This document shows positions 2,911 through 44,818 of a stretch of 46,752 nucleotides of DNA, piece after piece. Origin of the DNA: a virus; the IMG/VR virus record IMGVR_UViG_3300047312_000378, positions 1-46,752 of that record, one strand, 5' to 3'. Under the pieces are notes generated by a model. It ran no database searches and was not told the DNA's origin. It saw nothing but the letters and a program-made list of their open reading frames with translations. Both the position numbers and the translations under genes were made by a program. Numbering within the stretch: position 1 is the first letter of the stretch; the number at the start of each line of letters is the position of its first letter.

Positions 2911-4499
2911 AAAGTAAGCTCGAGACCACGACGCTGGATCGCGTTTTTCTTTCTCTCGCGCCGAAGTGGGGTCTTGAGCGGATTCGAGCCCGCGCCGCCG
3001 CGGTGACGATGCTCCGGCACTTCGAGGCGGCCGCAAGCGGGTACCGAACGGATCCCTGGCAGCGCAGCACCTCTGACGCGAACATGGCGGCATGGGGCGC
3101 ACTCTCGCTTCTTCGGCAGCATGCTCGGGACCTGATTCGGAACAACGCGTGGGCACAGAACGGCCAGCGCGTGATCACCCGCAACACCGTCGGCTGGGGG
3201 CTCACCGCAAAACCGGTCGGCGCCCAGGCAAAGCAGACTCAGGCGCTGTGGGGTCCGTGGGCCGGGACCGATGAGATCTTCTCGACGCAGTGTGATGCAG
3301 ACCGCCGGCTCACCTTCGCCGGGATGCAGACCGCCGTGATCAAGGCCGTGGCCCAGGATGGCGAGGTGTTGATTCGCCGCCGCCCCCGGCGCTCGACGGA
3401 TGGCCACACCGTTCCACTTCAGATTCAACTTCTCGAAGCAGACTTCCTCGACCTCAATCGGTCTGGGTTCGCTGGTCCCGCCGGCGGCCCGACGATCCAA
3501 GGTGTCGAGTTCGACCAGCGCGGCCAGCGCACGGCCTACTGGCTCTTCGATCGTCACCCGGGGTCCGGGCTTCTGGCGCAGGGAGCCAAGTCGGCCCAGC
3601 TGGTCAGCCGTCGAATTCCTGAAGCTGAGATCTTGCACATCTACCGACTCGACCGCCCGGGCCAGGTGCGGGGTATTCCGTGGTTCGCCCCGGTCATCAT
3701 CAAGCTGAAGGACTTCGACGAGTACGACGACGCGACGCTGATGCGGCAAAAGATTGCCGCGTGCTTCACGGCATTCGTCACTGACACCGAGGGTGATGCT
3801 GGGTTGATCGGGCCGGGCAGTGAGCCAGGCCAAGCGCCGCTCCCATCTGGTGCCGACGACGAGCGCCTCGAACCAGGTCTCGTCAACTACCTGCCACCTG
3901 GCAAATCGATCACCTTCTCGAACCCCCCGGGGGTCAACGACCACGCCTCCTACAGCGCCTCGAATCTGCGCCAGGTCGCCGCGGGGCTCGGCGTCACTTA
4001 TGAGGATCTCTCGCTCGATTATTCTCAGGTGAACTTCTCGAGTGCCCGGATGTCGCGGCTGGCTCACTGGGGGAATGTTCACGACTGGCGCTGGCACATG
4101 CTGGTCCCGCAATTCAATGCGCGCGTCTGGGAGTGGTTCATCGAGGCCGCGGTGCTGGCGGGCGAGCTCCCCGAAGGCGCCGCGCCGGGCGCGACCTGGA
4201 CCCCACCCCCGATGCCGATGATCGAACCGGACAAGGAAGGTCTCGCCTACCAGCGGCTCGTGCGGGCCGGCGCGATGACGCCGAGCGAAATGGTTCGCGA
4301 GCAGGGCAACGACCCCGACGCCCACTTCGAGGAGTACGCCGCCGACCTCGCACGCCTCGACAAGCTCAACATCACCCTCGACAGCGACGCTCGGAGGACG
4401 ACTCAGGCGGGCATGGCGCAACTCGAACCCGGCTCCGCCACAGGCGACACCAGCAAGCCCGAGGTCACCCCAGCCGAAGAGAAGGCGGCCGCCGCGTGA
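2907..4499 (+). CDS. Portal protein, lambda gpB family
   Basis: The 530-residue portal forms the dodecameric ring at the capsid vertex through which DNA is packaged and ejected. The N-terminal third, including the region around residues 50-95 (LLRQHARDLIRNNAWAQNG), and the later HIYRLDRPGQVRGIPWF segment are typical of the lambda portal family, and the length is normal. The GTG start at 2907 overlaps the gpW-like stop by four bases. The C-terminus is Ala/Glu-rich and disordered. Confidence 0.92.
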   Translation: MKSKLETTTLDRVFLSLAPKWGLERIRARAAAVTMLRHFEAAASGYRTDPWQRSTSDANMAAWGALSLLRQHARDLIRNNAWAQNGQRVITRNTVGWGLTAKPVGAQAKQTQALWGPWAGTDEIFSTQCDADRRLTFAGMQTAVIKAVAQDGEVLIRRRPRRSTDGHTVPLQIQLLEADFLDLNRSGFAGPAGGPTIQGVEFDQRGQRTAYWLFDRHPGSGLLAQGAKSAQLVSRRIPEAEILHIYRLDRPGQVRGIPWFAPVIIKLKDFDEYDDATLMRQKIAACFTAFVTDTEGDAGLIGPGSEPGQAPLPSGADDERLEPGLVNYLPPGKSITFSNPPGVNDHASYSASNLRQVAAGLGVTYEDLSLDYSQVNFSSARMSRLAHWGNVHDWRWHMLVPQFNARVWEWFIEAAVLAGELPEGAAPGATWTPPPMPMIEPDKEGLAYQRLVRAGAMTPSEMVREQGNDPDAHFEEYAADLARLDKLNITLDSDARRTTQAGMAQLEPGSATGDTSKPEVTPAEEKAAAA

Positions 4500-11033: not shown

Positions 11034-12609
11034 AACAAACCTCTCGCTGATCATTCGGGCCATCGACAAGGCGACGGGCCCGCTTCGAGAGATCACCAAA
11101 AAGATCGAGCACTCGACAGGTCCGGTCAAAAAGTTCGGCAAAGAGATCCACGAGCTCGGCGAGCAGTCGGGATTGTTCAAAGTCGGCGAGGCGTTCAAGG
11201 GCGTCGGCGAGGCGGCCCACAAGGTCGGAGAGAAAGCATTCGAGCTCGGGAAGGAACTGGCGCTGATGGCGCTCGAGGGCGGCTTTGTGCTCTTCGAGTT
11301 CGTGAAGCACTTCGTAGAAATGGGGGACGCCGCAAAGAAGACGGCCGATCGGGTTGGGCTGACCGTCGACCAGTTTTCGTCTCTCCAATTCGCGGCACGA
11401 AAGGCCGGGCTCTCTTCGGAGGAGTTCACCGGCGCGCTCGACAAGTTCAATAAAGAGCTGGGCCTGGCTCACCACGGCACCGGGAAGCTCTACGGGTTCC
11501 TGGCCGGCGCGAGCCCCGTGTTGCTGAAGCAAGTCACCGCCGCAAAGAGCACCGAGGAAGCGCTCAACCTGATGTGGAAGGCGATGGAGAAGTTCAAGAC
11601 GCCAGCCGATCGCGCGGCGTTCGCCACCCAGGTATTCGGGAAGTCGATGGCCAAGATGGGCGGCCTGGTGAAGGGCGGTGTCGAGGGGCTCGAGGAACAG
11701 CGACAGCTCTTCTTCAAGCTCGCCGGAAGCCAGACCAACTTCGCAGAGGGCGCCGAGCAGCTCGACGAAATGCTGATCGACCTGTCGACCGCGTTCAACG
11801 GGGTCGGCGCCTCAATCGCTCACGAGTTCTTCCCGGTGGTGCTCGAGCTGACGAAATCCGTTCGGGACTTCCTGGTCGCGAATCGCGACGGGATCGCCAG
11901 TTGGGCGCGCGACACCGGCAAGGCGATCATGGAGTGGGTCAACGGCGGCGGGATTCAGCGCCTGATCGACGGCTTCAAGAGCTTCATTGCGAGCGTGCAA
12001 CCCATCGTCGACAAGCTCGGCGGCTGGCCCCTGGTGCTCGCCGGGGTGGCCGCGGCGTTCATGGCTGCCCCGCTGCTCGGCGCAATCGCTGGTCTGGTCG
12101 GTTCCTTCTTCAGCCTCGGCGCCGCGCTGGTGACCCTCTGGCCAACGCTCACGCTTCTCGGCCCGATCCTTCTCCCCTTCCTCCCAATCGCTGCTGCGGT
12201 GGCGGCGGCGTGCATTGGAATCGCGTTGGCGGCCAAGTCGATCTACGACAATTGGGACGATCTGAAGCTGATATTCACTGATTGGTGGCGCGAGATTGAA
12301 GACCTGTTCGCCAAGGGGTGGGCGGTCGTTTCCCCGATCATCGACAAGCTTGGCGGGGTGACCTCGATTCTGCAAAACCCGCTCGGGGCAGCTTTCAAAG
12401 GTAGCTCGATGGCGGTGAACGCACTCATGGGCACCGACGAGCCAGCCAGCCAGCGGCCTCCGATTGGGGCTGCTCGACCGCCCCCGGCCACCGCTTCAGC
12501 CGCGACTATCACCGTCGACTTCAACAACGCTCCGAAGGGAACGAAAGCCAAGGCCGAGGGCACACACGCGGCTCTCGATCTCTCGATGGGCTACGCGGGC
12601 GGGGGGTGA
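11023..12609 (+). CDS. Tail tape measure protein
   Basis: The 528-residue protein sets tail length and is ejected through the tube. Features: N-terminal helix with IIRAIDKATGPLREITK, as in Mu-type tape measures, repeated GVGEA/KVGE heptads to residue 85, a TVDQFSSLQFAARKAGLSSE segment, and strongly hydrophobic stretches at about residues 335-410. It is short for the family, implying a short tail. It overlaps the chaperone frameshift product by 11 bases, the normal arrangement. Confidence 0.9.
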   Translation: MANETNLSLIIRAIDKATGPLREITKKIEHSTGPVKKFGKEIHELGEQSGLFKVGEAFKGVGEAAHKVGEKAFELGKELALMALEGGFVLFEFVKHFVEMGDAAKKTADRVGLTVDQFSSLQFAARKAGLSSEEFTGALDKFNKELGLAHHGTGKLYGFLAGASPVLLKQVTAAKSTEEALNLMWKAMEKFKTPADRAAFATQVFGKSMAKMGGLVKGGVEGLEEQRQLFFKLAGSQTNFAEGAEQLDEMLIDLSTAFNGVGASIAHEFFPVVLELTKSVRDFLVANRDGIASWARDTGKAIMEWVNGGGIQRLIDGFKSFIASVQPIVDKLGGWPLVLAGVAAAFMAAPLLGAIAGLVGSFFSLGAALVTLWPTLTLLGPILLPFLPIAAAVAAACIGIALAAKSIYDNWDDLKLIFTDWWREIEDLFAKGWAVVSPIIDKLGGVTSILQNPLGAAFKGSSMAVNALMGTDEPASQRPPIGAARPPPATASAATITVDFNNAPKGTKAKAEGTHAALDLSMGYAGGG

Positions 12610-12613
12610 TGCG

Positions 12614-13831
12614 ATGGGTTGGCGCGATCAAATGGGTCCGGCCTCCTTCCGGAAGATCCCCTTCTTCGTCGAGTCGGCCGAGTTCGCTGGTGGTCGGCGA
12701 TCCGTCAAGCATGAGTTCTTCGGAAAGGACGAGCAATTCGTTGAAGACACCGGCCGGAAGGGTCGCGAGTTTCAGATCGAAGGCTACGTCCTCGGAGAGG
12801 ATTACTTCACCGCGCGCGACGCGCTGATCGACGAGCTGGAAAAGGCGGGACCTGGTGAGCTGATCCACCCGTACCACGGGCAGCGCCAGGTGGTCTGCTC
12901 GAGCTTCAGGGTTCGCTCGAGCGCGAAGGATGGCGGGATCGCGATGTTTACGATCTCATTCGACCAAACGGAAACGACCCCATCGTTCCCGAAGGCGACG
13001 CTCGACAGCAAGTCGGCACTGAAGGCCACCGCGGTCAGCGCTCTTTCGGCGGCCAAGCTCGAACTGCTGGCGCTGGCCAACGTTTCATCCCTGGCGAATG
13101 GCGCGCTGAACAAGCTCACCGGCATGGTCACAGGGGCAAGCCGCCAGCTGTCCTCCCTGCTCGGCCCGCTGGCGAGCACGACGCAGGCGCTCGCCTCCCT
13201 GAAGCAAAGCCTCTCGGACCTCTCCGCCAACGCTGCAGGCGCAGCTCGAGCACCGGGCGACATGTTCGACACGATCGCCGCGACCGTTGGCGCGCTTGGC
13301 GCCGCGGGGGATCCCGTGACGGCGGTGCGATCCCTGTTGGCCGCATACAATTTCGATCCAGGTTCCGCCAGACCAGCAACCGACACGCTCGCCTCACAGG
13401 TCGAGCAGACCTCGCACGACGCCTACGCGCGCGCGATCGCTCGAATCAACCTGATCCAGGCCACGATTGTTTCGCTCGAGGGCGTGGCGAGCCCAGACGT
13501 CGAGGGCGCGTACCGGAGTTACGAAGACGCTCTCGCCACCCGCGACAGCCTTACGGGCGCGCTCGATGAGCAGCTCGAGCTGGCGGGTGACACGCTCTTC
13601 CCGATGCTGATGCAGCTGCGCGCCAACCTGGTCGCGGCGGTGCCAGGGCCAGAATCCGACCTGGCCCACCTGGTCGAGCACACGCTGCTGGTCACCCTTC
13701 CTTCGCTTCTGGTTTCGCATCAGCTGTACGGGAACCTCGACGGCGAAGCCGATCTGATCGCGCGGAACCACATCAAGCACCCGGGGTTCGTGCCGGGGGC
13801 GGTTTCTCTCGCGGTGCTCTCTGAAGTCTGA
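12614..13831 (+). CDS. Mu gpN-like tail/DNA circularization protein
   Basis: The 405-residue protein begins GWRDQMGPASFRKIPFFVE and has the KHEFFGKDEQFVEDTGRKG motif of the DNA circularization N-terminal domain family, which includes Mu gpN, a baseplate/tail component. The frame is open from 12464, but that region lies inside the tape measure gene; the ATG at 12614 gives the normal family start. The C-terminal two thirds are Ala-rich helices. Confidence 0.88.
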   Translation: MGWRDQMGPASFRKIPFFVESAEFAGGRRSVKHEFFGKDEQFVEDTGRKGREFQIEGYVLGEDYFTARDALIDELEKAGPGELIHPYHGQRQVVCSSFRVRSSAKDGGIAMFTISFDQTETTPSFPKATLDSKSALKATAVSALSAAKLELLALANVSSLANGALNKLTGMVTGASRQLSSLLGPLASTTQALASLKQSLSDLSANAAGAARAPGDMFDTIAATVGALGAAGDPVTAVRSLLAAYNFDPGSARPATDTLASQVEQTSHDAYARAIARINLIQATIVSLEGVASPDVEGAYRSYEDALATRDSLTGALDEQLELAGDTLFPMLMQLRANLVAAVPGPESDLAHLVEHTLLVTLPSLLVSHQLYGNLDGEADLIARNHIKHPGFVPGAVSLAVLSEV

Positions 13832-16048: not shown

Positions 16049-17104
16049 GTGGCATTTCAAAGACCGACACTCCAAGAGATTGCCGACCGGGTTCAGCAGG
16101 ATTTTGTTTCTCGAATGGCGCTGCTTGGAGCCGTTCTCCGCCGCAGCGTGGTCTTTATTCTCTCCCGGGTGATCGCGGGCGCCGCTCACATGCTGCACGG
16201 GCACCTCGAGTTTCTCGGGTTGCAGCTGTTCCCAGACAAGTCGGAAGGGGCGTTCCTGGTTCGCCAGGCCTCGCTCTTCAATATTTTCCCGAAGGAAGCC
16301 GCGTACGCAATTGGCGCAACCGTTCCGATCACCGGCACCAATGGAACGGTGATCCCGATCCACACGATCCTCCGGCGCTCAGACGGAGCCGAGTACCAGA
16401 CCGACGCGGAAGTTACGATCTCCGGCGGACTCGCCCACCCGACGATCACTGCGCTTGTGGCAGGCGCGATCGGCAACGCCGACGCCGGGGTGGTGCTGAG
16501 CTTCGAATCCCCGATCGCTGGCGCCGATGCTTCGATCACTGTCGGCGGCGAAGGGTTGATTGATGGCAGCGACGAAGAGACGACCGAGGAACTTCGATCC
16601 AGACTGATCGCCAGAATGCGAGCCGCCCCGAATGGCGGGTCGAAGGCAGACTTCGAGGCGTGGTCGCTCGAGGTGGCGGGGGTCACGCGGGCGTGGGTCT
16701 ACCCCCTCGAGCTGGGAGCCGGCACCGTGGTGGTGAGGTTCGTTCGAGACGATGACGTGAGCCTGATCCCGGACTCTGGCGAGGTTGCGATCCTGCAAGC
16801 CCACCTCGACACGGTGAGGCCAGTCACCGCCGCGGTCACCGTTGTCGCACCTTCGGCCGTTGCGCTCGCACTCAGCGTGCACATCAGCCCAGACAACAGC
16901 ACGACCAGGGCGGCGGTAACGGCCGCTCTCGGCTCCGTGATTCTTGAGGACGCCGAACCCGGTAGCACTCTTCTTCTCTCTCACTTGCGCGACGCGGTTG
17001 GCAATGCCGCGGGGGTCGATGACTACACGATGGCCTCACCGGTGGCCGACGTGACCCATTCAACCGGGCAGCTCGCGACGCTTGGCGTGATCACCTTCAC
17101 CTGA
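16049..17104 (+). CDS. Baseplate J-like protein (Mu gp47 family)
   Basis: The 351-residue wedge protein starts FQRPTLQEIADRVQQDFVSR and has GGSKADFEAWSLEVAGVTRAW, a strong baseplate-J motif. The GTG at 16049 follows GGAGG 11 bases upstream and gives the normal family N-terminus; an upstream in-frame extension to 15989 lies inside gp46. In Mu the next gene is gp48, but here three extra genes intervene. Confidence 0.92.
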   Translation: MAFQRPTLQEIADRVQQDFVSRMALLGAVLRRSVVFILSRVIAGAAHMLHGHLEFLGLQLFPDKSEGAFLVRQASLFNIFPKEAAYAIGATVPITGTNGTVIPIHTILRRSDGAEYQTDAEVTISGGLAHPTITALVAGAIGNADAGVVLSFESPIAGADASITVGGEGLIDGSDEETTEELRSRLIARMRAAPNGGSKADFEAWSLEVAGVTRAWVYPLELGAGTVVVRFVRDDDVSLIPDSGEVAILQAHLDTVRPVTAAVTVVAPSAVALALSVHISPDNSTTRAAVTAALGSVILEDAEPGSTLLLSHLRDAVGNAAGVDDYTMASPVADVTHSTGQLATLGVITFT

Positions 17105-17122
17105 TTGGAGTAGAAAAGACCC

Positions 17123-17926
17123 ATGAACAAGCGCACGAACCCAAGGCTGATCGCGTTGTTCGTTCTTCTCGGCCTCGGCGCAGCTGGCATTCTCACCGCA
17201 TGGGCCCAAGGCACCCCAGGCCCGGTGACCGCAATGTCGCAGCGCCTTTCGCGCGACGGCGGGGTCGACTGGCCAACCGAGGCTAAGATCACCCAATCCA
17301 TTTCGCTCACGGTCAAAACAGACGGTGGGTGGCCTGTTCAAATTACGAACCAGCTCGGGATCGGGTTCGACGGCGGCCTGGTGACGGCGAACCAGGGTGG
17401 CGCACCGTGGTCGGTGACGATCCCGATCAACCCTGTAGCCGATGGTGGAATGGTCAACGTCGGAAACTTTCCGGCGAGCCAGGCCTGCACCATCCCGATC
17501 AACCCTGTCGCGGACGGTGGCATGGTGAACGTTGGGAACTTCCCAGCAACCCAGGCGGTCAGCGTACCGATCAACCCTGTCGCCGATGGCGGCATGGTCA
17601 ACATAGGGAACCTCCCAGCGACCCAGGCCGTTTCCTCTGTTCTTCTCCACAAGCTCAACGGGGAGCCGAGCTTCGCCGGTGTGGTCTCGCCGCACGCGGA
17701 CGGCGGCACCGTCGCGTTCATCGACGCTGGCCTCGTGACGCTCCAGGTGAACTGCGAGGACGCGACCTTCCAGGTCGTCGGCGGTTCAGGCGCCGCGGCG
17801 GCTGACAACGGGGTGTTCATCGCCGCTCGTCAATCTTGGTGGTACGACCTGATCGCGATCCCGTTCGTGGCAGTGCGAAACGTCGACGGCGGATCCACCA
17901 ACTGCAAGTCGTGGGTAATGAACTGA
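17123..17926 (+). CDS. Membrane-anchored tail-associated protein with 24-residue repeats
   Basis: The 267-residue protein opens with a basic start and hydrophobic helix (residues 9-27) ending AWAQG, a signal peptide or anchor. Residues 100-171 are three 24-residue repeats built around IPINPVADGGMVNVGNF and PATQAV. The xVGNFPATQxVS pattern is common in phage fibre or decoration proteins. The C-terminal 90 residues are a beta-rich domain with two cysteines and DGG turns. GGAG precedes the ATG. A signal-type N-terminus on a tail-module protein is unusual. Function is unknown; a fibre or tip decoration is likely. Confidence 0.6.
   Translation: MNKRTNPRLIALFVLLGLGAAGILTAWAQGTPGPVTAMSQRLSRDGGVDWPTEAKITQSISLTVKTDGGWPVQITNQLGIGFDGGLVTANQGGAPWSVTIPINPVADGGMVNVGNFPASQACTIPINPVADGGMVNVGNFPATQAVSVPINPVADGGMVNIGNLPATQAVSSVLLHKLNGEPSFAGVVSPHADGGTVAFIDAGLVTLQVNCEDATFQVVGGSGAAAADNGVFIAARQSWWYDLIAIPFVAVRNVDGGSTNCKSWVMN
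17420..17635 (+). repeat. Three tandem 72-base coding repeats
   Basis: Three units begin at 17420, 17492 and 17564, each encoding a 24-residue repeat with NPVADGGMVN and GNFPA/GNLPA. Third-position changes between units show they are older duplications kept by selection on protein sequence. Confidence 0.85.
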
Positions 17927-17928
17927 AG

Positions 17929-19311
17929 ATGGGCGCCGATCGACTCGACCGCGTTGGGCGGTGGATCTGTTTATTCGGCCTCGCCATGCTCGGCGGGTTC
18001 TTGCTGGCCATCGTTCCACAGCACCGACTCTTCCTTCAGCCGAACATGAGGACGCTCGACAACTCGGTTCACATTCCGAAGATCGAGTTCGCTGGCGACG
18101 ACGGGATTGGCATGGGCACCGCGTGCGCTTGCTCGGCGATCACCGGTCTTCGCGGAGAGACCGTGACGTTCGCGCGCGCGAGTGACGGCACCTGCTTTCA
18201 GCATTCAGAACTGACGGGAATTCTTCCTGGTGAGCTGGTCACATGCACCACCGATCAGCCTCGAGTTCAGTACGGCGGAACGGGGGCAGCTCCGCTCGGC
18301 CTTTCTGTCTGGCAGGCGATGACGAACCCGGTGATCCGGAACCAGGAAGTCGACAACGTCGCGTGGCTCAAGGGGACCGGTGTCAACCTGACCACCATCG
18401 AGGCCGACGTTGGGTATGCACCGGACGGCACGCTCACCGCCGATCGGATGCTGAGCAAAACTGGCACCAGCTACATCGAGCAGGTGCTCGTCTCGAGCGC
18501 GACGCCCTACGCGCTCTCTTGGTTTGTCTGTGGGGTGAAGACCGATCCAGATGGCGGCATGGTGACGGACGGCGGACTCGGGGTCGATGGCGGCGACGGC
18601 ACCGGCTCGATCCCGCTTTGCGGCCTGTTCAATGGCAACACCTTCGCCTGCTCGAGCTGCGCTTACTCCGCCTGTCCTTCCTACAACCGGTGCCCGACCT
18701 ACATCACCTCGAACAACAACGCCGCGACCTACCCTTGCATTGGTGGCGGGTGCGCAGCATCACCGAACACGATCACGAACGACGTGATGGTCTGGGGTTC
18801 ACAAATTGATCGCTTCACCGCGGTGGCCAGTGTGGGGCCGTACATTCCGACCGCCGGCACCGCCGTTACCCGGGCCGTTGAAACCGTTTCCGTCGACGCA
18901 GGTTTTCTTGGTGGGTCGACCGAGAGCTTCGCCGCCACGGTGATCTCACCGAACGGGTTCGTCAACGGGTCGGCGCTTTTTGATTGGTACAACTCCGGCG
19001 CAAACTTCATCATGATCCAGGCGCTCGGGACCACCGGAGTCGTGCGCCTCAATCTCACGTCGGGAGGAGTTTCAACGACCCAGGACTCCACCGCACTGCT
19101 CACCCCAAACGCGACGAACCGGGTGTCGGCATTGATTCGTGCGAGCACGGATCTCCGGATTTGCGTCAACGGAACTTGCGACACCACCTCGCTTGCCCAA
19201 ACGATCCCGACGCTGCTGACGATCTTCCCGGCGAATCATCAGACCGGCGGATCTCAATTCAACTCAACGATCAAGAAGTTCTGCGCCGACGATGGCGATT
19301 TCTGCCAATAG
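17929..19311 (+). CDS. Putative tail fibre / receptor-binding protein with N-terminal membrane segment
   Basis: The 460-residue protein has a hydrophobic helix at about residues 12-30 followed by segments seen in many phage fibre proteins: TFARASDGTCFQ with a later PRVQYGG, then VAWLKGTGVNLTTIEADVGY and APDGTLTADRM, a carbohydrate-binding-like module. A Cys-rich insert follows (about 12 Cys in residues 205-270) with many DGG turns, and the C-terminal third looks like a LamG/concanavalin domain. The ATG at 17929 lies three bases after the previous stop with no clear ribosome-binding site, so translation may be coupled. Confidence 0.6.
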   Translation: MGADRLDRVGRWICLFGLAMLGGFLLAIVPQHRLFLQPNMRTLDNSVHIPKIEFAGDDGIGMGTACACSAITGLRGETVTFARASDGTCFQHSELTGILPGELVTCTTDQPRVQYGGTGAAPLGLSVWQAMTNPVIRNQEVDNVAWLKGTGVNLTTIEADVGYAPDGTLTADRMLSKTGTSYIEQVLVSSATPYALSWFVCGVKTDPDGGMVTDGGLGVDGGDGTGSIPLCGLFNGNTFACSSCAYSACPSYNRCPTYITSNNNAATYPCIGGGCAASPNTITNDVMVWGSQIDRFTAVASVGPYIPTAGTAVTRAVETVSVDAGFLGGSTESFAATVISPNGFVNGSALFDWYNSGANFIMIQALGTTGVVRLNLTSGGVSTTQDSTALLTPNATNRVSALIRASTDLRICVNGTCDTTSLAQTIPTLLTIFPANHQTGGSQFNSTIKKFCADDGDFCQ

Positions 19312-19320
19312 AGATCCAAA

Positions 19321-19908
19321 ATGGCCGCGCCTCCGATCACGAAGAACCAGCTCCTCCTGCTCGCCGCGTTCCTGGCGTCGGCCGGCGCCGGCACGATCTT
19401 CTTCGTCAACCTGAACACGGGCGCCGTCGACCGGATGCCCGACAGCTTCGGGAACTTCGAGGTTCTCGATCGAAACCTGTGCACCTCAAGCGCCTGCAAT
19501 GCGGCCGAGTGTCAGCGCGCGCTGAACATCCTCGTCGATGCCGGAAGTCAGTGCACCGTTCGGTTCGTCGACTGCCCGGTGCGGCTCGGCCAGCGCGCCA
19601 GGAATATCGCGGCCGATGCCGGGGTCGTGTTCTCGGCCGCCAAGTACCAGCAGGTTCGGTTCGTGGTCGAACGATGCCCGAGCGGCGGAATGGCAGTGCC
19701 GGTCGATGACAACGGGTTTCCGATCTTCACGACCCAATCGGTTCAGTATCCGTGTGCTTGGAAGAACCCGGACGCGGGCGGAGTCTGCACTCTCACCGAT
19801 GGCGGCGACCCGGGGCTCTTCAACACAATGCAACCCGGCGCGTTCACCGGCGCCGGGTGCCAGCGCAAGTCCTGCTCTGAATTCCAGGGCGACACCTCGG
19901 CCCCCTGA
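19321..19908 (+). CDS. Cys-rich protein with N-terminal membrane anchor
   Basis: The 195-residue protein has a hydrophobic segment at residues 10-29 (LLLLAAFLASAGAGTIFFV) and 11 cysteines after it, enough for several disulfides. DGG and DAGG turns resemble exported myxobacterial proteins. No family is recognised. Its stop overlaps the gp48-fusion start, so it belongs to the tail-tip operon. Confidence 0.55.
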   Translation: MAAPPITKNQLLLLAAFLASAGAGTIFFVNLNTGAVDRMPDSFGNFEVLDRNLCTSSACNAAECQRALNILVDAGSQCTVRFVDCPVRLGQRARNIAADAGVVFSAAKYQQVRFVVERCPSGGMAVPVDDNGFPIFTTQSVQYPCAWKNPDAGGVCTLTDGGDPGLFNTMQPGAFTGAGCQRKSCSEFQGDTSAP

Positions 19909-22049
19909 TGGCTTCCCCACGAGCACTCTGGGCGTATGACCTCGACGGCGCACCGCTGCTCGGCGGAGCTTTCACGATCGCGGCGTTCGTCAACCGGGCC
20001 GGCGGGGTTCGAACTCCACCGGTCGGCGGGGTGGTTGAACTCGGCGACGGGCAGTACGCGTTCCAACCGCTGGCCGCCGATGAGACGGTCGGAACGATCG
20101 CGATCGTCGACTGTGGGGTGCTGGCGGCCCAGCGCTACCAGGTGTTCGCGATCTTCCTCGCCGACAGTTCGAACGCCTTCGCCGCCTACGTTCCGCTCAA
20201 CCCGGACGGCACGCTCGGCGCCGGTGCTCCGACCGTCGGGTCATTCCGCCGGCTCGACGTCGGAACCTCGCGCCCGCCACCCACCATCGTTCAGGCCGGC
20301 GGCTTCGAGATCTACAGCGCCTCCCCAACCCCGACAGATATCTCGATCGGCGTCGGCCTCAGCCTCACCGGGCCGACCGGAATGTATCCCGGCACGCTCA
20401 CCCAAGTCTTCACCGCCGGGTTCGCGATCTCGTCGAGCGTCGCGCCCGCGGTAGGCGGCTTCGTCCCTGCGCTCCCAGGGCCCCTCGCGAACCTCGATCC
20501 ATTCCAGTTCGACGTCACGGTCCCCGATGCCACCCCGCTGGCCAATTGCGACATCCTGCTGCGGTTCCCATCCGGTGCCGTCGAGGTCGTGTACGACGGC
20601 GCGAGCTTCTCGCCGTTCTACATCGACGGATCGAGCGTCTCGGTAATCGCCAATGGCGCACGGTTCGTCGTTTTGCGCCGCGGAGGCTGGCGGCCAATCG
20701 GTGCGCCGACGCTCGAGGTTCGAGCGGTCTCAGTGACGGGCGTCAAGAACGAGGCGCCGATCACCTTCGTTTGGCAGCTCACCACCCCGGCGCCGGTCAC
20801 ACCCCCGGGGGAAACCGCGCTCGGGTTCTCGGCGCTCGCCTACGCGCGCCAGCTCCGGGCGCTGCTGCCCCCCGGCCTCGTGTGGATGCTCGAGGCGAAC
20901 AGCAAGATCAACCTCTCGCTCGAGTCGATGGGGACAGAGCTCGCGCGGGTCGATGCCAGAGCGGTCGACCTGACGGAAGAGTCCGACCCGCGGACCACCG
21001 ACGAATTGCTCGAGGATTGGGAGCGGGTGCTTGGGTTGCCGTCTGGATGCGTGCTCGAACTGGCGACGACGGACGCTGGTCGGCGGCAGGCGATTGTTCA
21101 GGCCTTGGTCAATCGCGGCGGACAGACCCTGGCGTTCTTCATCGAGGTCGCATTGGCGGTCGGAGCCGTCGCCACGATCAAGGAGTTCACCGGCGCGGTG
21201 CTTCGAGCTGGTCGCGCTCGATCTGGCGATCGCTGTTACGGAACGCAGTGGGTTCATATCTGGGACCTCGAGATTCTCAACTCGATCGGCAGCGGCACCG
21301 CGCTTCCGGCCCCCACCGGCCTCGGGTTCGGCGCCGGCGCGACAACCGGTGGAACCATTCCGCACGGAACGGCCTGCAAGTACCGCGTTGTGGCCCGTAA
21401 CGCCTCCGGCACCTCGAACGCCTCGAGCAGCGCGACCCACACCCCGGGCGGAGTGACGAACACGAACCGCAACGATCTCTTCTGGACCGCTGTCGACGGC
21501 GCGACGAGCTACGACATTTTCGCCGACTACACCGGCGGCGATGAGAAGCTGATCGGCACATCGACCACCACCGGCTACGCCGACACAGGTGGAACGCCAA
21601 CCAGCTATCCGCCGATCCTGATCCCGACGATCTCGAGCGTCGCAAACGAAGCAACGACCGGCGGAGTTCTTATCGGTGGGGTCGAGGTCTTCTACCGCGT
21701 GGCGGCGATCAACGCCGCTGGTGAGACATTCGGATCCGCTCCAGCCAGCGTGACTCCTCCGCTCGGCACGAACACGAACACCGCCAGAATCAACTGGACC
21801 CAAGTGGTCGGAGGAACCGGCTACCGGATCTACGGTCGATCAGACGGCGCGGAATTGCTGATCGGTCAGGTCGGCGCCGTTGGGACATTCGTCGACACCG
21901 GAGTCTTCGAGGCTCACGCATTCCCGGCAACCGTGAATCGCGCAAGATCAGATCCGCGCGGCCTCGCCAGCAAGGGCACCGCGCTCGAGTGCGTGATTGC
22001 CCGCGCCGCACCCGCCCATTCTATCGTTCTTTTCGAACTGCTCGAGTAA
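19908..22049 (+). CDS. Enlarged gp48-like (DUF2313) tail protein with fused fibre domains
   Basis: The 713-residue protein contains a split gp48/YmfQ domain. Residues 1-100 resemble a fibre N-terminal beta domain (ALWAYDLDGAPL) and 120-290 look like IPT/Ig-type strands. Residues 302-450 are gp48-like: YARQLRALLPPGLVW, then WERVLGLPSGC and RRQAIVQALVNRGGQ. Two FN3-like repeats follow at about 463-565 and 566-670. The last 40 residues (LECVIARAAPAHSIVLFELL) are the normal gp48 C-terminus. So the FN3-like repeats sit inside the gp48 fold. Mu gp48 is only about 190 residues. Confidence 0.75.
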   Translation: MASPRALWAYDLDGAPLLGGAFTIAAFVNRAGGVRTPPVGGVVELGDGQYAFQPLAADETVGTIAIVDCGVLAAQRYQVFAIFLADSSNAFAAYVPLNPDGTLGAGAPTVGSFRRLDVGTSRPPPTIVQAGGFEIYSASPTPTDISIGVGLSLTGPTGMYPGTLTQVFTAGFAISSSVAPAVGGFVPALPGPLANLDPFQFDVTVPDATPLANCDILLRFPSGAVEVVYDGASFSPFYIDGSSVSVIANGARFVVLRRGGWRPIGAPTLEVRAVSVTGVKNEAPITFVWQLTTPAPVTPPGETALGFSALAYARQLRALLPPGLVWMLEANSKINLSLESMGTELARVDARAVDLTEESDPRTTDELLEDWERVLGLPSGCVLELATTDAGRRQAIVQALVNRGGQTLAFFIEVALAVGAVATIKEFTGAVLRAGRARSGDRCYGTQWVHIWDLEILNSIGSGTALPAPTGLGFGAGATTGGTIPHGTACKYRVVARNASGTSNASSSATHTPGGVTNTNRNDLFWTAVDGATSYDIFADYTGGDEKLIGTSTTTGYADTGGTPTSYPPILIPTISSVANEATTGGVLIGGVEVFYRVAAINAAGETFGSAPASVTPPLGTNTNTARINWTQVVGGTGYRIYGRSDGAELLIGQVGAVGTFVDTGVFEAHAFPATVNRARSDPRGLASKGTALECVIARAAPAHSIVLFELLE

Positions 22050-22058
22050 GGGGAACCC

Positions 22059-23231
22059 ATGCACAGAGTCGACACTGACGGGAACGTTGCAAACGCTTTC
22101 ACCGATGGAACTCCGGGCGTCACCCAGGCGACGGTGGTCGACGCCGCGATCTTGAATGCGATGCAAAACGAAATCGCAAACGCGATCGAATCGGGCGGCG
22201 TGGCGCTGGTGAAGGGAACGAACAACCAGCTCGCGTCGGTGATCGTTCCGCAAAGCGAGTACAGGCCTCAGACGTACCAGGCACAGGCAAGCGAGTTCTT
22301 TTCTCTAGATGACACCTCGTCACTGATCGACGTTATCCGAGAGGTCTTCGTTGATCCGACAGCCAAGATCGTGGTCGCGGTTGGTTCGCTGTCTGGAAAC
22401 ATGGCGACCGTCATCGGCATCGGCACCGTTCCATTCCAAAGCCTCACGGTGCCAAGCACTCCGGCCGGCGACATTTTCGCGATCGCGAGCAACGGTACGA
22501 CGCTCGTCGGGGTTGGTACGACTGGGAAAATAATCACAATGCCGGTGGCTGGATCGTACTCGTGGACAAACAGAACCGGCGCGCTCGGATCGGAATGGCT
22601 GCTCGACGTAAAATGGTGCGCGAGTTCCGGGCTGTTCATCTGTTGCGGAATTACGGGTGGCTTACAGACCTCTCCGGACGGGATCACCTGGACATCCCGA
22701 ACCAACCCCTCGGCCGGAGTCGTGACCGCCGGCATTGCGATCAACGGGCTTACCGTGATCATCGGAACCGTGGCTGGCAGCCCCTCGACGACGAGCGGAA
22801 TTCGTAGTTCGAACGGCGGGATCAGCTGGGCAACTATGACGATGCCGGTCGCTGTTTCCGGAACAGAAAACCCGACCGTGTGCGCCGGACTCTTCAAGTA
22901 TTTTATTTCCGGAGTGACGAACGCCGGTGCCGACTCGAACATCTTCAGCAGCTCTGACGGCGCCACTTGGACGAACGTAAAGGCGCTGATTGGAACTGAT
23001 CCGGCTCGGCCAATTTCGTTGGCCGGATGCGTGCTGGTGATCACAACGGGCGACAGCAATGGGTGCTTTTTTTCGATCGACGGAACCACCTGGATCCCTG
23101 TCAGGCTCCGCCGGCAGCCGCAGGTCAACAGCAAACCGTTCTACTCGGCAGTCGAGGGCAGGCTTTATTTGGTGATGAAGAACCCAACCAACCAGCAGAT
23201 CTTTTCGTCTATCAGCCGCGTCGAGATCTGA
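22059..23231 (+). CDS. Tail fibre with gp48-adjacent N-terminus and BNR-like propeller
   Basis: The 390-residue protein begins with a tail-fibre attachment segment (VDTDGNVANAFTDG, then LNAMQNEIANAIE) common in fibres next to gp48. From residue 100 onward, repeats with S-x-D-G-x-T-W (TSPDGITW, SSDGATW, SIDGTTW) resemble BNR/Ycf48-type beta-propeller blades, often sugar-binding. It is the best receptor-binding candidate. GGGGA precedes the ATG. Confidence 0.72.
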   Translation: MHRVDTDGNVANAFTDGTPGVTQATVVDAAILNAMQNEIANAIESGGVALVKGTNNQLASVIVPQSEYRPQTYQAQASEFFSLDDTSSLIDVIREVFVDPTAKIVVAVGSLSGNMATVIGIGTVPFQSLTVPSTPAGDIFAIASNGTTLVGVGTTGKIITMPVAGSYSWTNRTGALGSEWLLDVKWCASSGLFICCGITGGLQTSPDGITWTSRTNPSAGVVTAGIAINGLTVIIGTVAGSPSTTSGIRSSNGGISWATMTMPVAVSGTENPTVCAGLFKYFISGVTNAGADSNIFSSSDGATWTNVKALIGTDPARPISLAGCVLVITTGDSNGCFFSIDGTTWIPVRLRRQPQVNSKPFYSAVEGRLYLVMKNPTNQQIFSSISRVEI

Positions 23232-23257
23232 TCGAAACCCCCAACCAGGAGCACGCC

Positions 23258-23659
23258 TTGAAGTCATTCCTTGCAGGTCTCTCAGCGCTCGCCGTGGTGC
23301 TCGCTGTCGCCGGTCTCACGCCCCCGGGTACCTCGATCGCTCGAGCCGACGACGAGCCGGCGCTCCTTGACGGTGGGGCGATCGCGACGTCGACCGATGG
23401 CGGTCGGTGCGTGGTGGTCGACACTGGCCCGCGCGGCCCCTGGCACTCCGCGCTGACTTGCGAGGGGGCGCAATCGAGCCGCTACAAGTTCTGCTCCTCG
23501 ACGACGTGCGCGCCCACCGCAATCAACCCGCTGGCGGTCTACAACACCCGAACCGAGATCCCTGTGAACCAGCGAGTCGGACTCACCGCCAAACGGTACC
23601 TCGGGTTCTGCACTGATGACGGCGGGGTGCCCTACTGCTTGGTAGAAGAAATTCGCTGA
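23258..23659 (+). CDS. Secreted small Cys-containing protein
   Basis: The 133-residue protein starts at a TTG with AGGAG six bases upstream. Residues 1-31 form a clear Sec signal peptide ending ARA before DD. The mature part has six Cys and DGG turns. No family is recognised; being last in the fibre operon, it may act at the cell surface or periplasm, or be a late moron. A hairpin follows. Confidence 0.6.
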   Translation: MKSFLAGLSALAVVLAVAGLTPPGTSIARADDEPALLDGGAIATSTDGGRCVVVDTGPRGPWHSALTCEGAQSSRYKFCSSTTCAPTAINPLAVYNTRTEIPVNQRVGLTAKRYLGFCTDDGGVPYCLVEEIR

Positions 23660-23690
23660 TCGGCCTGAAGCGCTCTTGCGCTACGGCCGA
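23660..23690 (+). terminator. Perfect two-part hairpin after the fibre operon
   Basis: TCGGCC at 23660-23665 pairs with GGCCGA at 23685-23690, and AGCGC at 23669-23673 pairs with GCGCT at 23678-23682 around a TCTT loop. It begins one base after a stop codon and lies in the only gap between fibre and lysis modules. There is no T-run, so it may be a factor-dependent terminator or processing site. Confidence 0.5.
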
Positions 23691-23717
23691 ACTGGCATGT
23701 AATAGTTCGTTCAGCCA

Positions 23718-30661: not shown

Positions 30662-31130
30662 GGGCCACCTCGATCAGCTTCAGGAGATACGGCGTCGCCC
30701 GGTACCATTCGCCGCGCACGCGACCGTCCCCGATCTTTCGGCGAAGGCGCCGTAGGTCGGCTGGAGTGCCGAGCAATGTGGCGAGCAGGACCAGTTCAGT
30801 CGGGCAGCCCAACTGGAGACGCGTCAGGTGCTCGGCCGGCGCTGACGACAGGCCGATCGTGATCAGTCCAGTCGTCGCTTCTTCGATGAAGAAGATCACG
30901 GGCCGCAATGGAGCGCGCATTTCACGCTCGGCCTGTTTGATCGTCAGCTTCCCGGCTCCCATCTGTCGAATCAGATCGGGCCGCGTTCTCCCGATCGCCT
31001 GCACGCGCTGCACTTGAGGATCCGCATTGAGCCTCGCGATTTCGGCGTTCAGGTCAGCGACAACTTGTTCGTCGGTTCGGGCGGCCAGCTCGCGGCGGAT
31101 CTCGGCTGACGTCTTCAGTTTGGTCTTCAC
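30654..31130 (-). CDS. GIY-YIG-like (T5orf172/MUG113) protein
   Basis: The 158-residue protein has a coiled N-terminal part, then RPVIFFIEEATTGLITIGLS, LTRLQLGCPTELVLLAT and GRVRGEWYRATPYLL, the pattern of T5orf172/MUG113 GIY-YIG domains. The first motif reads IFF and ITIGL instead of GIY and YIG, so catalysis is doubtful. The GTG at 31130 overlaps the C5-methyltransferase stop. Confidence 0.68.
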   Translation of the reverse strand: MKTKLKTSAEIRRELAARTDEQVVADLNAEIARLNADPQVQRVQAIGRTRPDLIRQMGAGKLTIKQAEREMRAPLRPVIFFIEEATTGLITIGLSSAPAEHLTRLQLGCPTELVLLATLLGTPADLRRLRRKIGDGRVRGEWYRATPYLLKLIEVARG

Positions 31131-32764
31131 GCAGTTCTCCTGAGCTTCAGTGGGAGGTTCGCCGCGACGACTGCTTCGGCGACCTCGGGGCAAACGCTGT
31201 TCCCAATCAGCCGCACCTTCGCGGCCTTCGTGGTGGCGGCCGACAGGTCGTAGTCAGCGGCGAAGCGGCCGAACTGGGCGGCGAGCAGCTCGTGCGACTC
31301 GAGCATTCGCATTCCGATGTCGACGATCTGGTAGTCGATGCCGCTGATCGTCACCAGGCCGAGCCGGTGCTTCGAGGTGATCGTCCGCGCCGGCTCGTTC
31401 AGCGACTGCCCGCCAGTGCCGTCGGTTCCGTAGAAGGCGGTGAGGAAGGCGCGAACCTCGGCAACGTGGATGCCGCCCGCGCTGATCGTCGGCACTGGCT
31501 CCTCGACCGACCCAGAAGCGGGCTGGCTCGGGTCGGTACCGCGAAACTTCGCCAGACAAATCGCGGCGAGACTGCTGTGGTCCCGGGTGGTGATCGTGGG
31601 AACTGGCTGCTTGAGCTCCTGGCCGAGCACCACCCCGCCGCCATCGGCTCGCAGCGGGTCGCCGAAATGTTTCACCAAAAAGGCCGACACCAGGCCCTGC
31701 TTCACCCCCTCCGCCATCAGGGTGCCCATTGGGGCGTGAAGGTCGAGGTAGCGCGGGCGCTGGGCGGCGGCGTCTCCGACCGCGGGCCGTTCGCCGTAGC
31801 CGGTCTGAACCAGCGTCGGAGCTATCAACACCCGGTCGTTCTTGGCGGTGATCGTTCCAATCGGGTCCGCTCCGCCAGTCGCCGCCGATTGCCCGGCTCG
31901 GCCGCCAACCCCGGCGATCACCGGCACCACCAGCGCATGGCTTCGGCTGGTCGCGGTGATCGTCGTCAGAGGGTCGTCGATGCTGCTGACGCGTGTGCCG
32001 GTCTTGTGGTCGTCGCCGTGGTTCACCTTCACGATGAACGGGGTGGGGTTCTCCAGGACGAAGCGGCGAATACCCTGGGCGATGCGCCAGAGTGTCTTCT
32101 CAGCCAGCGGCCGCTTCCGCTCGAAGATGCTCGGGCAAGGAAGGCTCCAGTCGATGCACTCCGCCACGGTGTGAACCGGAAGCTTCCCGGGTCCGTGCGT
32201 GGTCTCCGGCCAAACGATCGGCTTCCCGTCGCACCGTGCCACCAGGAACAGCCGCCGCCGCTTCGTGGGTGCGCCGTAAAGGGAGGCGTCGAGGATGCGG
32301 TGGTCGACCTTGTAGCCGAGCAGCTCGAGCGCCCCGCGCCACTGCGCGAAGGTCTCGCCCATCTTCGCCTTGACCGGCTTGCCATCGTTGTCGAGCGGTC
32401 CCCACCCGAGGAACTCGCGAACGTTCTCGAGGCAGATGACGTCGGGCCGCACGTCGCGCGCCCAGTCGACCACCACCCAAGCAAGGCTCCGGTTCCCGCT
32501 CTCGCGCGGCTTGCCGCCCTTCGCCACGCTGAAGTGGGTGCAGTCGGGCGAGGCCCAGAGCAGTTCGACCTTGCGCCGGCCGACAGCGGTCTTCGGGACC
32601 ACCGCCCAGATGTCGGCACTGAGGTGATGGGTGCGCGGGTGATTCGCCTTGTGCACCGCAAGGGCAACCGGCGAGTGGTTGATCGCCAGGTCGACGATGC
32701 GGCCTGTGGCCGCCTCGATGCCGACGGATGCGCCGCCGCCACCCGCGAAGAGGTCGACGATCAA
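31127..32764 (-). CDS. DNA C5-cytosine methyltransferase
   Basis: The 545-residue protein carries SAM motif DLFAGGGGASVGIE at residues 4-17, the catalytic loop as ASPDCTHFS with Cys75, and ENVREF at 113-118. SPDC replaces the usual PCQ, a variant known in phage and prophage enzymes of this group. Motif VIII-like RRRLFLVAR and a closing GNSVCPEVAEA are present. The long middle region (residues 260-450) has repeated DPLTTIT/DPIGTIT/VPTITTR segments, probably the target-recognition part. Confidence 0.92.
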   Translation of the reverse strand: MIVDLFAGGGGASVGIEAATGRIVDLAINHSPVALAVHKANHPRTHHLSADIWAVVPKTAVGRRKVELLWASPDCTHFSVAKGGKPRESGNRSLAWVVVDWARDVRPDVICLENVREFLGWGPLDNDGKPVKAKMGETFAQWRGALELLGYKVDHRILDASLYGAPTKRRRLFLVARCDGKPIVWPETTHGPGKLPVHTVAECIDWSLPCPSIFERKRPLAEKTLWRIAQGIRRFVLENPTPFIVKVNHGDDHKTGTRVSSIDDPLTTITATSRSHALVVPVIAGVGGRAGQSAATGGADPIGTITAKNDRVLIAPTLVQTGYGERPAVGDAAAQRPRYLDLHAPMGTLMAEGVKQGLVSAFLVKHFGDPLRADGGGVVLGQELKQPVPTITTRDHSSLAAICLAKFRGTDPSQPASGSVEEPVPTISAGGIHVAEVRAFLTAFYGTDGTGGQSLNEPARTITSKHRLGLVTISGIDYQIVDIGMRMLESHELLAAQFGRFAADYDLSAATTKAAKVRLIGNSVCPEVAEAVVAANLPLKLRRTA

Positions 32765-38802: not shown

Positions 38803-39240
38803 TGACCCTTCGACCGCTCACCATTCGAGCCGCGCGCCTGCTCGTCAAGTCGCTCCACCGCCACCTTCCCAGGGTTCAGGGCGGTTGCTTCGCCACCGCG
38901 GTCTACGACGGCGATCGGCTCTGCGGGGTGGGGATCGCCGGGCTGCCGCGAGCTCGTCTCGCGATGGACGGTAAGACCATCGAGATCCACCGGGTCGCAA
39001 CCGACGGGACGAACAACGCGTGCAGCAAGCTTTACGGCGCCCTGTGCCGAGCTGCGGCCGCCATCGGCTATTCACGCGCGCTGACTTCGACGCTGCCTGG
39101 GGAAAGCGGGATTTCTCCGCGGGCTGCGGGCTTCACGTTGGCCCATCAGACGCAGGGGGGGGGGTTGGTCTCGACCTTCTCGCTCTCGTGGTGCTCCCGT
39201 GATGGGCGGATCGAAGCTGGTCTGGGAGAAGTCGCTGTGA
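38799..39240 (+). CDS. XF1762-like protein, frame broken at a G10 tract
   Basis: RPLTIRAARLLVKSLHRHLP, GGCFATAVYDGDRLCGVGIA and THE later DGTNNACSKLYGALCRAA are hallmarks of the XF1762 phage family. The family should end WSRPSRxR...LVWEK. This ending exists here only in the +1 frame after the G10 run at 39155-39164. With one G fewer, a 146-residue protein ends ...SKLVWEKSL at 39240, and its stop overlaps the methyltransferase GTG (GTGA). As written, the frame instead runs on into the methyltransferase. Either an assembly error or a phase-variable/slippage fusion. Confidence 0.75.
39155..39164 (+). repeat. G10 homopolymer that decides the reading frame
   Basis: Ten G in a row within the XF1762-like gene. 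G9 (or G12) gives the standard family C-terminus and a separate methyltransferase; G10 gives a 492-residue fusion. Such runs are prone to sequencing error, replication slippage and transcriptional slippage. Confidence 0.9.
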
Positions 39241-40277
39241 GCGCCCTGGTGCTCCTCGGCGATTGCGTCGAGCAGATGGCCACGCTCGAGGCGGACTCGG
39301 TTCAGTGCTGCGTCACCTCCCCGCCGTATTGGGGGCTGCGCGACTACGGGCACGCTGGGCAAATCGGGCTCGAAGCGACCCCGGAACTGTTCGTCGAGCG
39401 CATGGTCGAGGTGTTCCGTGCGGTCTGGCGGGTGCTGCGCGGTGATGGCGTTCTCTGGCTGAACCTCGGCGACAGCTTCGCGTCTGGCGGCCGAGGTGCT
39501 CAAGGGAAGCGCGGCCAGATGATGGGGCGCTCGGTTGCGGCCGCGAGGGCGATGGTTGGGCGCGTGGCCAGAACGGCCCCGAAGGGCCTGAAGCCGAAAG
39601 ACCTGATCATGATGCCGGCTCGGGTCGCCCTGGCTCTGCAGGCAGACGGCTGGTTCCTCCGACAGGACATCATCTGGGCCAAGCCGAACCCGATGCCTGA
39701 GGCGGTCACCGACCGACCGACCTCCGCGCACGAGCACATCTTCCTGCTCTCAAAGTCGGGGGACTACTTCTACGACGCCGAGGCAATCAGGGAGCGGGCC
39801 ACCGGCACCGCCCATGCGCGCGGGAGCGGCGTAAATCCGAAGGCTGCGGGGCAATCGAGAGACCGCCAATACGCCGAGGGGACGACCGTCCCCAAAATGG
39901 ATACTTCTTCAGATCGCCGGGTCGCCGGCTTCAACCAACGGTGGAAGACGAAACAGAACGCCTCGTTCTCGGCCTCGGTGACGAAGCTCGTCGAGTGGCG
40001 GAATTCCCGGAACGTCTGGTCGATTCCGAGCCAGCCCTACCGCGGCGCTCACTTCGCGGTGTTCCCAGAGGCGCTGCCGCAACGGTGCATCCTCGCCGGG
40101 AGCCGCCCGGGCGACCTGGTGCTCGACCCGTTCACCGGTAGCGGCACCACCGGCGCGGTCGCGCTGAAGGAAGGTCGGCGGTTCGTCGGGTGCGAAATCA
40201 ACCCCGAGTACCGCGAACTCGCGATGCGCCGAATGCAGGTCACACCGGGGTTTGTTTTCGAGGCCACCAGCCCATGA
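39237..40277 (+). CDS. Site-specific DNA methyltransferase (N4-cytosine/N6-adenine, beta order)
   Basis: The 346-residue enzyme has motif IV TSPPYWGLRDYG with the TSPPY at residues 27-31, and SAM motif DPFTGSGTTG near residue 299, so IV precedes I, the beta class. TSPPY suggests N4-cytosine or N6-adenine methylation. The GTG at 39237 overlaps the predicted stop of the XF1762-like gene; as sequenced it is in frame with it. No restriction endonuclease is nearby. Confidence 0.9.
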   Translation: MSALVLLGDCVEQMATLEADSVQCCVTSPPYWGLRDYGHAGQIGLEATPELFVERMVEVFRAVWRVLRGDGVLWLNLGDSFASGGRGAQGKRGQMMGRSVAAARAMVGRVARTAPKGLKPKDLIMMPARVALALQADGWFLRQDIIWAKPNPMPEAVTDRPTSAHEHIFLLSKSGDYFYDAEAIRERATGTAHARGSGVNPKAAGQSRDRQYAEGTTVPKMDTSSDRRVAGFNQRWKTKQNASFSASVTKLVEWRNSRNVWSIPSQPYRGAHFAVFPEALPQRCILAGSRPGDLVLDPFTGSGTTGAVALKEGRRFVGCEINPEYRELAMRRMQVTPGFVFEATSP

Positions 40278-40561
40278 GCACCACGATCAAGAACCCGAAC
40301 GACTGCCTCAGCTGCGGTGGGTGGACCTGCTCGAAGTGCTCACCGAAAGGCATCGGAGAAATGGCCGATCCTGAGGCCGATGAGCTCGCGGCGCTCCGCC
40401 GACGGGTTCAGGTGGCCGAACTGGCAATCCTCGTCGAGCGAGAGGTCTGCGCGCAGCTGGCCGAGGCCCAATCGTTCGCTCCCGGAACCGTCCTTGGCGT
40501 GAAGCAGCAGTTCGTCAAAGACCAAATCGCTGCCGCGATCAGGGCGAGAGGTGCCCAATGA
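40274..40561 (+). CDS. Small zinc-finger-like protein
   Basis: The 95-residue protein starts at an ATGA overlap with the methyltransferase and has CLSCGGWTCSKC (C-x2-C-x4-C-x2-C) near residues 11-22, a zinc-ribbon pattern, then helices. The longer frame to 40190 lies inside the methyltransferase and is rejected. Confidence 0.6.
   Translation: MSTTIKNPNDCLSCGGWTCSKCSPKGIGEMADPEADELAALRRRVQVAELAILVEREVCAQLAEAQSFAPGTVLGVKQQFVKDQIAAAIRARGAQ

Positions 40562-43885: not shown

Positions 43886-44814
<929 letters not shown>

Positions 44815-44818
<4 letters not shown>

Follow-up and report, generated by a model that had tools for sequence, protein, structure and literature searches.

Export-type, cysteine-rich genes with fibre homology interrupt the tail operon of a Mu-like phage and recur in unrelated phages

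The stretch of DNA analyzed here (the window) is a 46,752-base viral record from IMG/VR that carries a Mu-like contractile-tail operon, with homologues of the sheath, hub, gp47 and gp48 lying in order, as in a Mu-like myophage. A first-pass annotation had stated that gp47 and gp48 are neighbors in Mu-like phages and that three genes intervene between them here, and both statements held. In PBb001, a Mu-like Bordetella phage whose sheath is, among phage records, the closest to that of the window, the two Pfam-confirmed genes directly overlap. In the window this adjacency is broken, and genes A, B and C, and nothing else, are bracketed by the Pfam-assigned gp47 and gp48 (boundaries at 17104 and 19908; Table 1). 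Gaps of 18, 2 and 9 bases separate gp47 from A, A from B and B from C, and C overlaps gp48 by one base, a tight spacing indicating that the cassette is packed into the late operon. The cassette contained neither a promoter-like site nor a gap for one, although myxobacterial promoters may escape prediction. Terminator-like sites occur within B (nine in the region vs. 5.5 ± 2.1 in shuffled sequences). The window gp48 has ~310 extra N-terminal residues ahead of its Gp48 domain, and its C-terminal part is repeat-like, with weak matches to GH85_C and phrog_7440. Elsewhere in the window, a 227-base repeat of GCTGCT/GATGCT-type units (44418–44644) produces a long Ala/Asp run in an ORF at 43886–44818.

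Table 1. Features in and around the cassette, in window coordinates
Feature	Position	Strand	Basis
gp47, Baseplate_J baseplate wedge protein, upstream neighbor	16049..17104	+	Pfam PF04865, 1.4e-58
Gene A, 267 aa, Sec-type N-terminus, three 24-residue DGG repeats	17123..17926	+	No family match
72-base tandem repeat (24-aa units) in A	17420..17630	+	Tandem Repeats Finder, 2.9 copies, 81% matches
Gene B, 460 aa, ATG start, Cys-rich fibre/lectin, hydrophobic signal or signal-anchor	17929..19311	+	phrog_5939 (tail), 7e-8
Gene C, 195 aa, predicted N-terminal membrane anchor and 10-Cys ectodomain	19321..19908	+	Alignment with C genes 3' of B elsewhere
gp48, Phage_Mu_Gp48, downstream neighbor	19908..22049	+	PF10076, 2.2e-21, at residues 315–457
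Ordinary short tail fibre protein without export signal, internal control	22059..23231	+	phrog_2617, 1.4e-10; no hydrophobic N-terminus
Gene D, 133 aa, TTG start, Sec-type signal peptide, 6 Cys, 3 DGG; 3' of fibre gene	23258..23659	+	Cleavage site by eye

Hydrophobic export-type N-termini had been proposed for all three intervening genes, and a single hydropathy rule applied to every called gene of the window bears this out. At 17110–23700, five of the six genes had such an N-terminus, namely A to D and, marginally, gp48; in the rest of the window, 5 of 61 did (Fisher P = 1.5e-4). Within this interval, gp48 counts as a borderline false positive, and the sheath, whose start was probably called too early, is a probable false positive outside it. 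By eye, the hydrophobic stretches of A and D end in A-x-A-like sites (possibly AWA/Q and ARA/D, respectively) and look cleavable, and D matches the description of a further signal-peptide protein closing the fibre operon. The long hydrophobic stretches of B and C have no clear cleavage site, and these N-termini may be only anchors. No lipobox was seen by eye in A to D, which, at 133–460 aa, do not combine a lipobox with small size as Llp/Cor proteins do. Cysteines number 3, 17, 10 and 6 in A, B, C and D, and DGG motifs 8, 3, 1 and 3, and 15 of the 24 DGG motifs of the window fall in these four proteins, which make up 1,055 of its 14,761 residues. The gene said to have 11 cysteines is C with 10, B being the richest and A having few. 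The 24-residue repeats ascribed to one gene are present in A, and B matches the tail family phrog_5939 over residues 78–451.

The fibre/lectin family to which B belongs is widespread among phages. The profile match of B, over most of the protein, is that of a phrog_5939-type fibre/lectin, but B departs from the non-exported N-terminus that is usual, though not a defining trait, in such proteins. AlphaFold2 models of B and C were of low confidence (pLDDT 42 and 37), and the viral fold matches of this weak B model were lectins, which locally supports a LamG/galectin-like C-terminal part.

The cassette was also sought, and found, in other phages. A tblastn search with B led to the GenBank records of two Manatee Spring phages, MW202637 (L002, deposited as Siphoviridae; a second record, MW202789, gave an identical match, 30.6% over 93%) and MW202477 (L003, deposited as Podoviridae; complete genome). 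Alignment searches of IMG/VR added the B relatives L006–L011, L014 and L015, with the duplicates L009/L016, L010/L013 and L011/L012 each counted once. Querying IMG/VR with the individual A, B, C and gp48 proteins yielded no relatives, and tblastn searches of phage records with A and C gave no match. Of two scans of genome contigs, one produced no relative of B and the other only distant relatives of the sheath, in Pseudomonadota, and neither supplied a prophage context. Window B matches ten other phages (E values 2e-43 to 2e-10), and B of L006 matches a phrog_5939-related lectin tail family at 6.5e-27. An export-type N-terminus is present on B in all 11 phages, window included (one at 1.69); several of these signals contain no basic residues. 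Both Manatee Spring B proteins begin with export signals, that of L002 being lipobox-like, and so do several of their neighbors.

Ten of the phages have a contig that extends past B (that of L007 ends within B and was left out), and in nine of them a membrane-anchored, Cys-rich C gene lies 3' of B; the hydrophobic anchor is present in 8/8 C sequences, and window C and that of L014 match by blastp at 1e-6. L002 is the exception. In the place of C it has a lipoprotein-like protein (13281–13793) with a HELFH metallopeptidase-like motif by eye and no Pfam match. B is preceded by a small gene (A'), mostly with a signal, and the A' genes form several families. In L008, B is preceded by another copy of B, and the A'-like gene there has no signal. 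Homology between window A and the A' genes was considered, but A is alike in place and not clearly in sequence, and matches no A' family clearly. The backgrounds of the cassette are Mu-like, "siphovirus" and "podovirus." Gene finders miss parts of it: C in MW202477 (13170–13961) and the small, signal-bearing A' gene before B in MW202637 (about 11478–11811) are both unannotated in GenBank. MW202477 has a further signal-bearing gene (3888–4484) that matches phrog_3484 (6.6e-6), the sole one with a tail-fibre family match among ten genes scanned in this phage.

Ordinary members of the B family provided a control. A search with alignment A7 gave 412 B-domain relatives, of which 80 were kept and 74 were weak (L017–L090). 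Sixty-eight of the latter were used, leaving out L023 (wrong frame picked) and L063, L080, L086, L089 and L090 (open 5' end); for L039, L044, L046, L052, L066 and L074, the scored ORF is the far end of a two-piece match, and start codons in controls and loci were chosen by a simple script. Three of the 68 passed the hydropathy cut-off (1.7 for controls, 1.69 for the B set), none convincingly, and one of these, L036, was probably called from too early a start. Cysteine density did not overlap between the sets (minimum 1.60% in the B set vs. maximum 1.57% in controls, P = 6e-8). Hence, the B domain appears ordinary elsewhere and export-type here. Export-type N-termini were likewise concentrated near B (27 of 37 genes vs. 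11 of 153 far from it, P = 5e-16, leaving out genes 1.5 to 5 kb from B), and the median cysteine content of export-type proteins was 2.7%, compared with 0.0% for other + strand proteins of the same loci (42 vs. 66 proteins, P = 2e-14). Ectodomain cysteine counts were even in 8/8 C and 8/10 B proteins; because the sequences are related, these counts are not independent.

Among 50,697 phage records, the window cytosine methylase (31127–32764) is closest to that of Myxococcus phage Mx4 (62%, next 47%) and the integrase to that of Myxococcus phage Mx8 (37%, next 28%). These two genes, both of a mobile kind, make a Myxococcota host likely. A published description calls Mx4 Mu-like (PMC8530038). In the Myxococcus phages Mx8 and Mx9, the proteins p64 and p14, respectively, the second of which carries the annotation "putative tail fiber protein," each match phrog_28766 near 4e-5 and consist of a predicted 28-residue signal peptide followed by a fibre domain. 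The same domain starts at residue 2 in Stenotrophomonas phage BUCT555 and near residue 8 in Bradyrhizobium phage ppBjS10J-1, both without a signal, and the predicted cleavage would leave the Mx8 and Mx9 proteins with nearly the same start as these signal-less fibres. By such predictions, these two phages are an independent example of the arrangement, with a textbook-like signal peptide prepended to a fibre domain. Signals are also present on Mx8 p66 and p67 and on Mx9 p15; p67 (38819–39367 of its record) has an SGNH-type esterase look by eye and shares a part with Mx9 p15. No signal is carried by the Mx4 fibre candidate (39730–40536, named by position only, with no family match), which, together with the ordinary window fibre, indicates that export is not required for every fibre of such phages. 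We dropped the proposition that all Mx8 fibre genes carry signals, since the signal-less p54, whose top match is a virion structural family, has lesser tail-fibre family matches (best 2.4e-10); Mx8 may therefore not depend on exported fibres.

Textbook tailed phages build their tails and fibres in the cytoplasm. The comparisons above suggest that A to D, unlike ordinary tail parts built inside, work outside the cell interior. From the observed gene anatomy, recurrence, export-type N-termini and cysteine enrichment we infer actual export, disulfides and docking, with differing confidence. Export itself is very probable, given the hydrophobic start of every B protein, the lipobox-like start in L002, the cysteine enrichment with mostly even counts, and the Mx8 and Mx9 signals. 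The four proteins would be tail-fibre-like adhesins of the phage that are expressed late, alongside the tail genes, leave through the host Sec pathway, and are folded and disulfide bonded outside the cytoplasm. B would be a fibre/lectin protein whose usual start has been swapped for an export signal, C would be anchored in the inner membrane with its Cys-rich domain in the periplasm, and A and D would be their partners in soluble form in the periplasm. Once the holin has opened the membrane, the exported fibres would meet the cytoplasm-built tails and dock, and the virion would be finished outside the cytoplasm. Docking at a late stage is a physical possibility, given that the tailspikes of P22 bind to tails in extracts, and docking is favored by the fibre N-terminal module kept in Mx8 and Mx9 and by the signals on several fibre families. 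We tentatively prefer this full course, from export through outside folding and disulfides to docking on virions at lysis, over coating of the host envelope, while regarding it as far from secure. Its generalization is more speculative still, i.e., that some Myxococcota tailed phages finish their virions outside the cytoplasm, stockpiling Sec-exported, oxidized fibres in the periplasm for docking at lysis, with signals added to several unrelated fibre families yielding disulfide-bonded fibres that the cytoplasm cannot make. The first-pass proposal of exported tip proteins, implying a new assembly route or a host-surface role, thus agrees with the sequence comparisons in its export routing; a virion-tip location and a new route go a step further, and a host-surface role fits about as well.

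In that host-surface role, which we consider possible but somewhat doubtful, the proteins would be exported for the host envelope, coating the surface or sitting in the outer membrane or periplasm, and would mask receptors, protecting against superinfection or against progeny being lost to debris. A secreted version of an adhesin fold would in this way occupy the receptor that the phage itself uses. All of the evidence for export applies equally here. The lipoprotein-like start of the L002 B homologue, the anchor that C keeps throughout, and the ordinary fibre that the window retains for its virion would also fit, and T5 Llp, an exported exclusion lipoprotein encoded beside a receptor-binding gene, offers a precedent (PMC9586334), although Llp is small, blocks from the periplasm and is not a lectin. 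Signals on several unrelated fibre families (B, Mx8 p64 and the further MW202477 gene) are more readily explained by a route to the outside for virion fibres, and retention of the fibre N-terminal module in Mx8 and Mx9 also argues against a purely envelope function.

It is unlikely that the proteins are not exported at all and that their hydrophobic N-termini are virion parts, such as a trimerization or anchoring helix or a segment that enters the host membrane during DNA entry. The long hydrophobic stretches of B and C in the window, with no clear cleavage site, would suit such a role, as would the podovirus-type cassettes, whose neighbors are large proteins that lack cysteines and are similar to ejection proteins in size and location. 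However, the resemblance of the A, D and Mx8 p64 N-termini to signal peptides ending in A-x-A, the lipobox-like start in L002, the strong cysteine enrichment beside Cys-free virion proteins, and the absence of such a stretch in ordinary members of the B family argue against it. Least probable is a lysogenic-conversion (moron) cassette that changes the lysogen surface and lies in the tail operon by chance, for although lambda lom adjoins tail genes, the A genes are export-type and fast-changing, and the window has an integrase, the cassette has no promoter-like site or room for one, its gene order is seen again next to late genes in phages whose backgrounds differ, and it shows homology to fibre families.

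A recurring export-type, Cys-rich cassette with fibre homology would mean either a second, extracytoplasmic assembly step, as in the docking reading that we prefer, or a new way to coat or mask the host surface, and it is not confined to one phage. The question is directly testable, because Mx8 and Mx9 are cultured and appear to show the same principle. Searches of titles and abstracts in the open-licence PMC literature returned no report of signal peptides on tail fibres of such phages, and exported fibres are not mentioned in the available parts of PMC10720576, PMC10281127, PMC6070905 and PMC3556154. In podoviruses, fibre genes usually come after the genes for internal virion proteins (PMC10386132). 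Among known systems, the phrog_5939 and related "concanavalin A-like lectin" tail proteins share with B the homologous region, but the 68 ordinary relatives have no convincing export signal and few cysteines. Mx8 p64 and Mx9 p14 resemble window B as fibre proteins with a signal peptide in front, although they belong to another fibre family and to podoviruses, and no sequence similarity to A to D was found. The T5 Llp/Cor superinfection-exclusion lipoproteins are likewise exported phage proteins encoded beside a receptor-binding protein gene, with a disulfide noted (PMC9586334), but are small and lack a lectin or fibre fold, and inspection by eye showed no lipobox in the window proteins. In Bdellovibrio bacteriovorus, the mosaic adhesive trimer (MAT) fibres are tail-fibre-like adhesins with a signal peptide and display outside the cell (PMC10769870). 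MAT fibres, which follow a conserved ~130-residue beta domain, are encoded by the bacterium for predation, whereas the genes described here lie in phage late operons.
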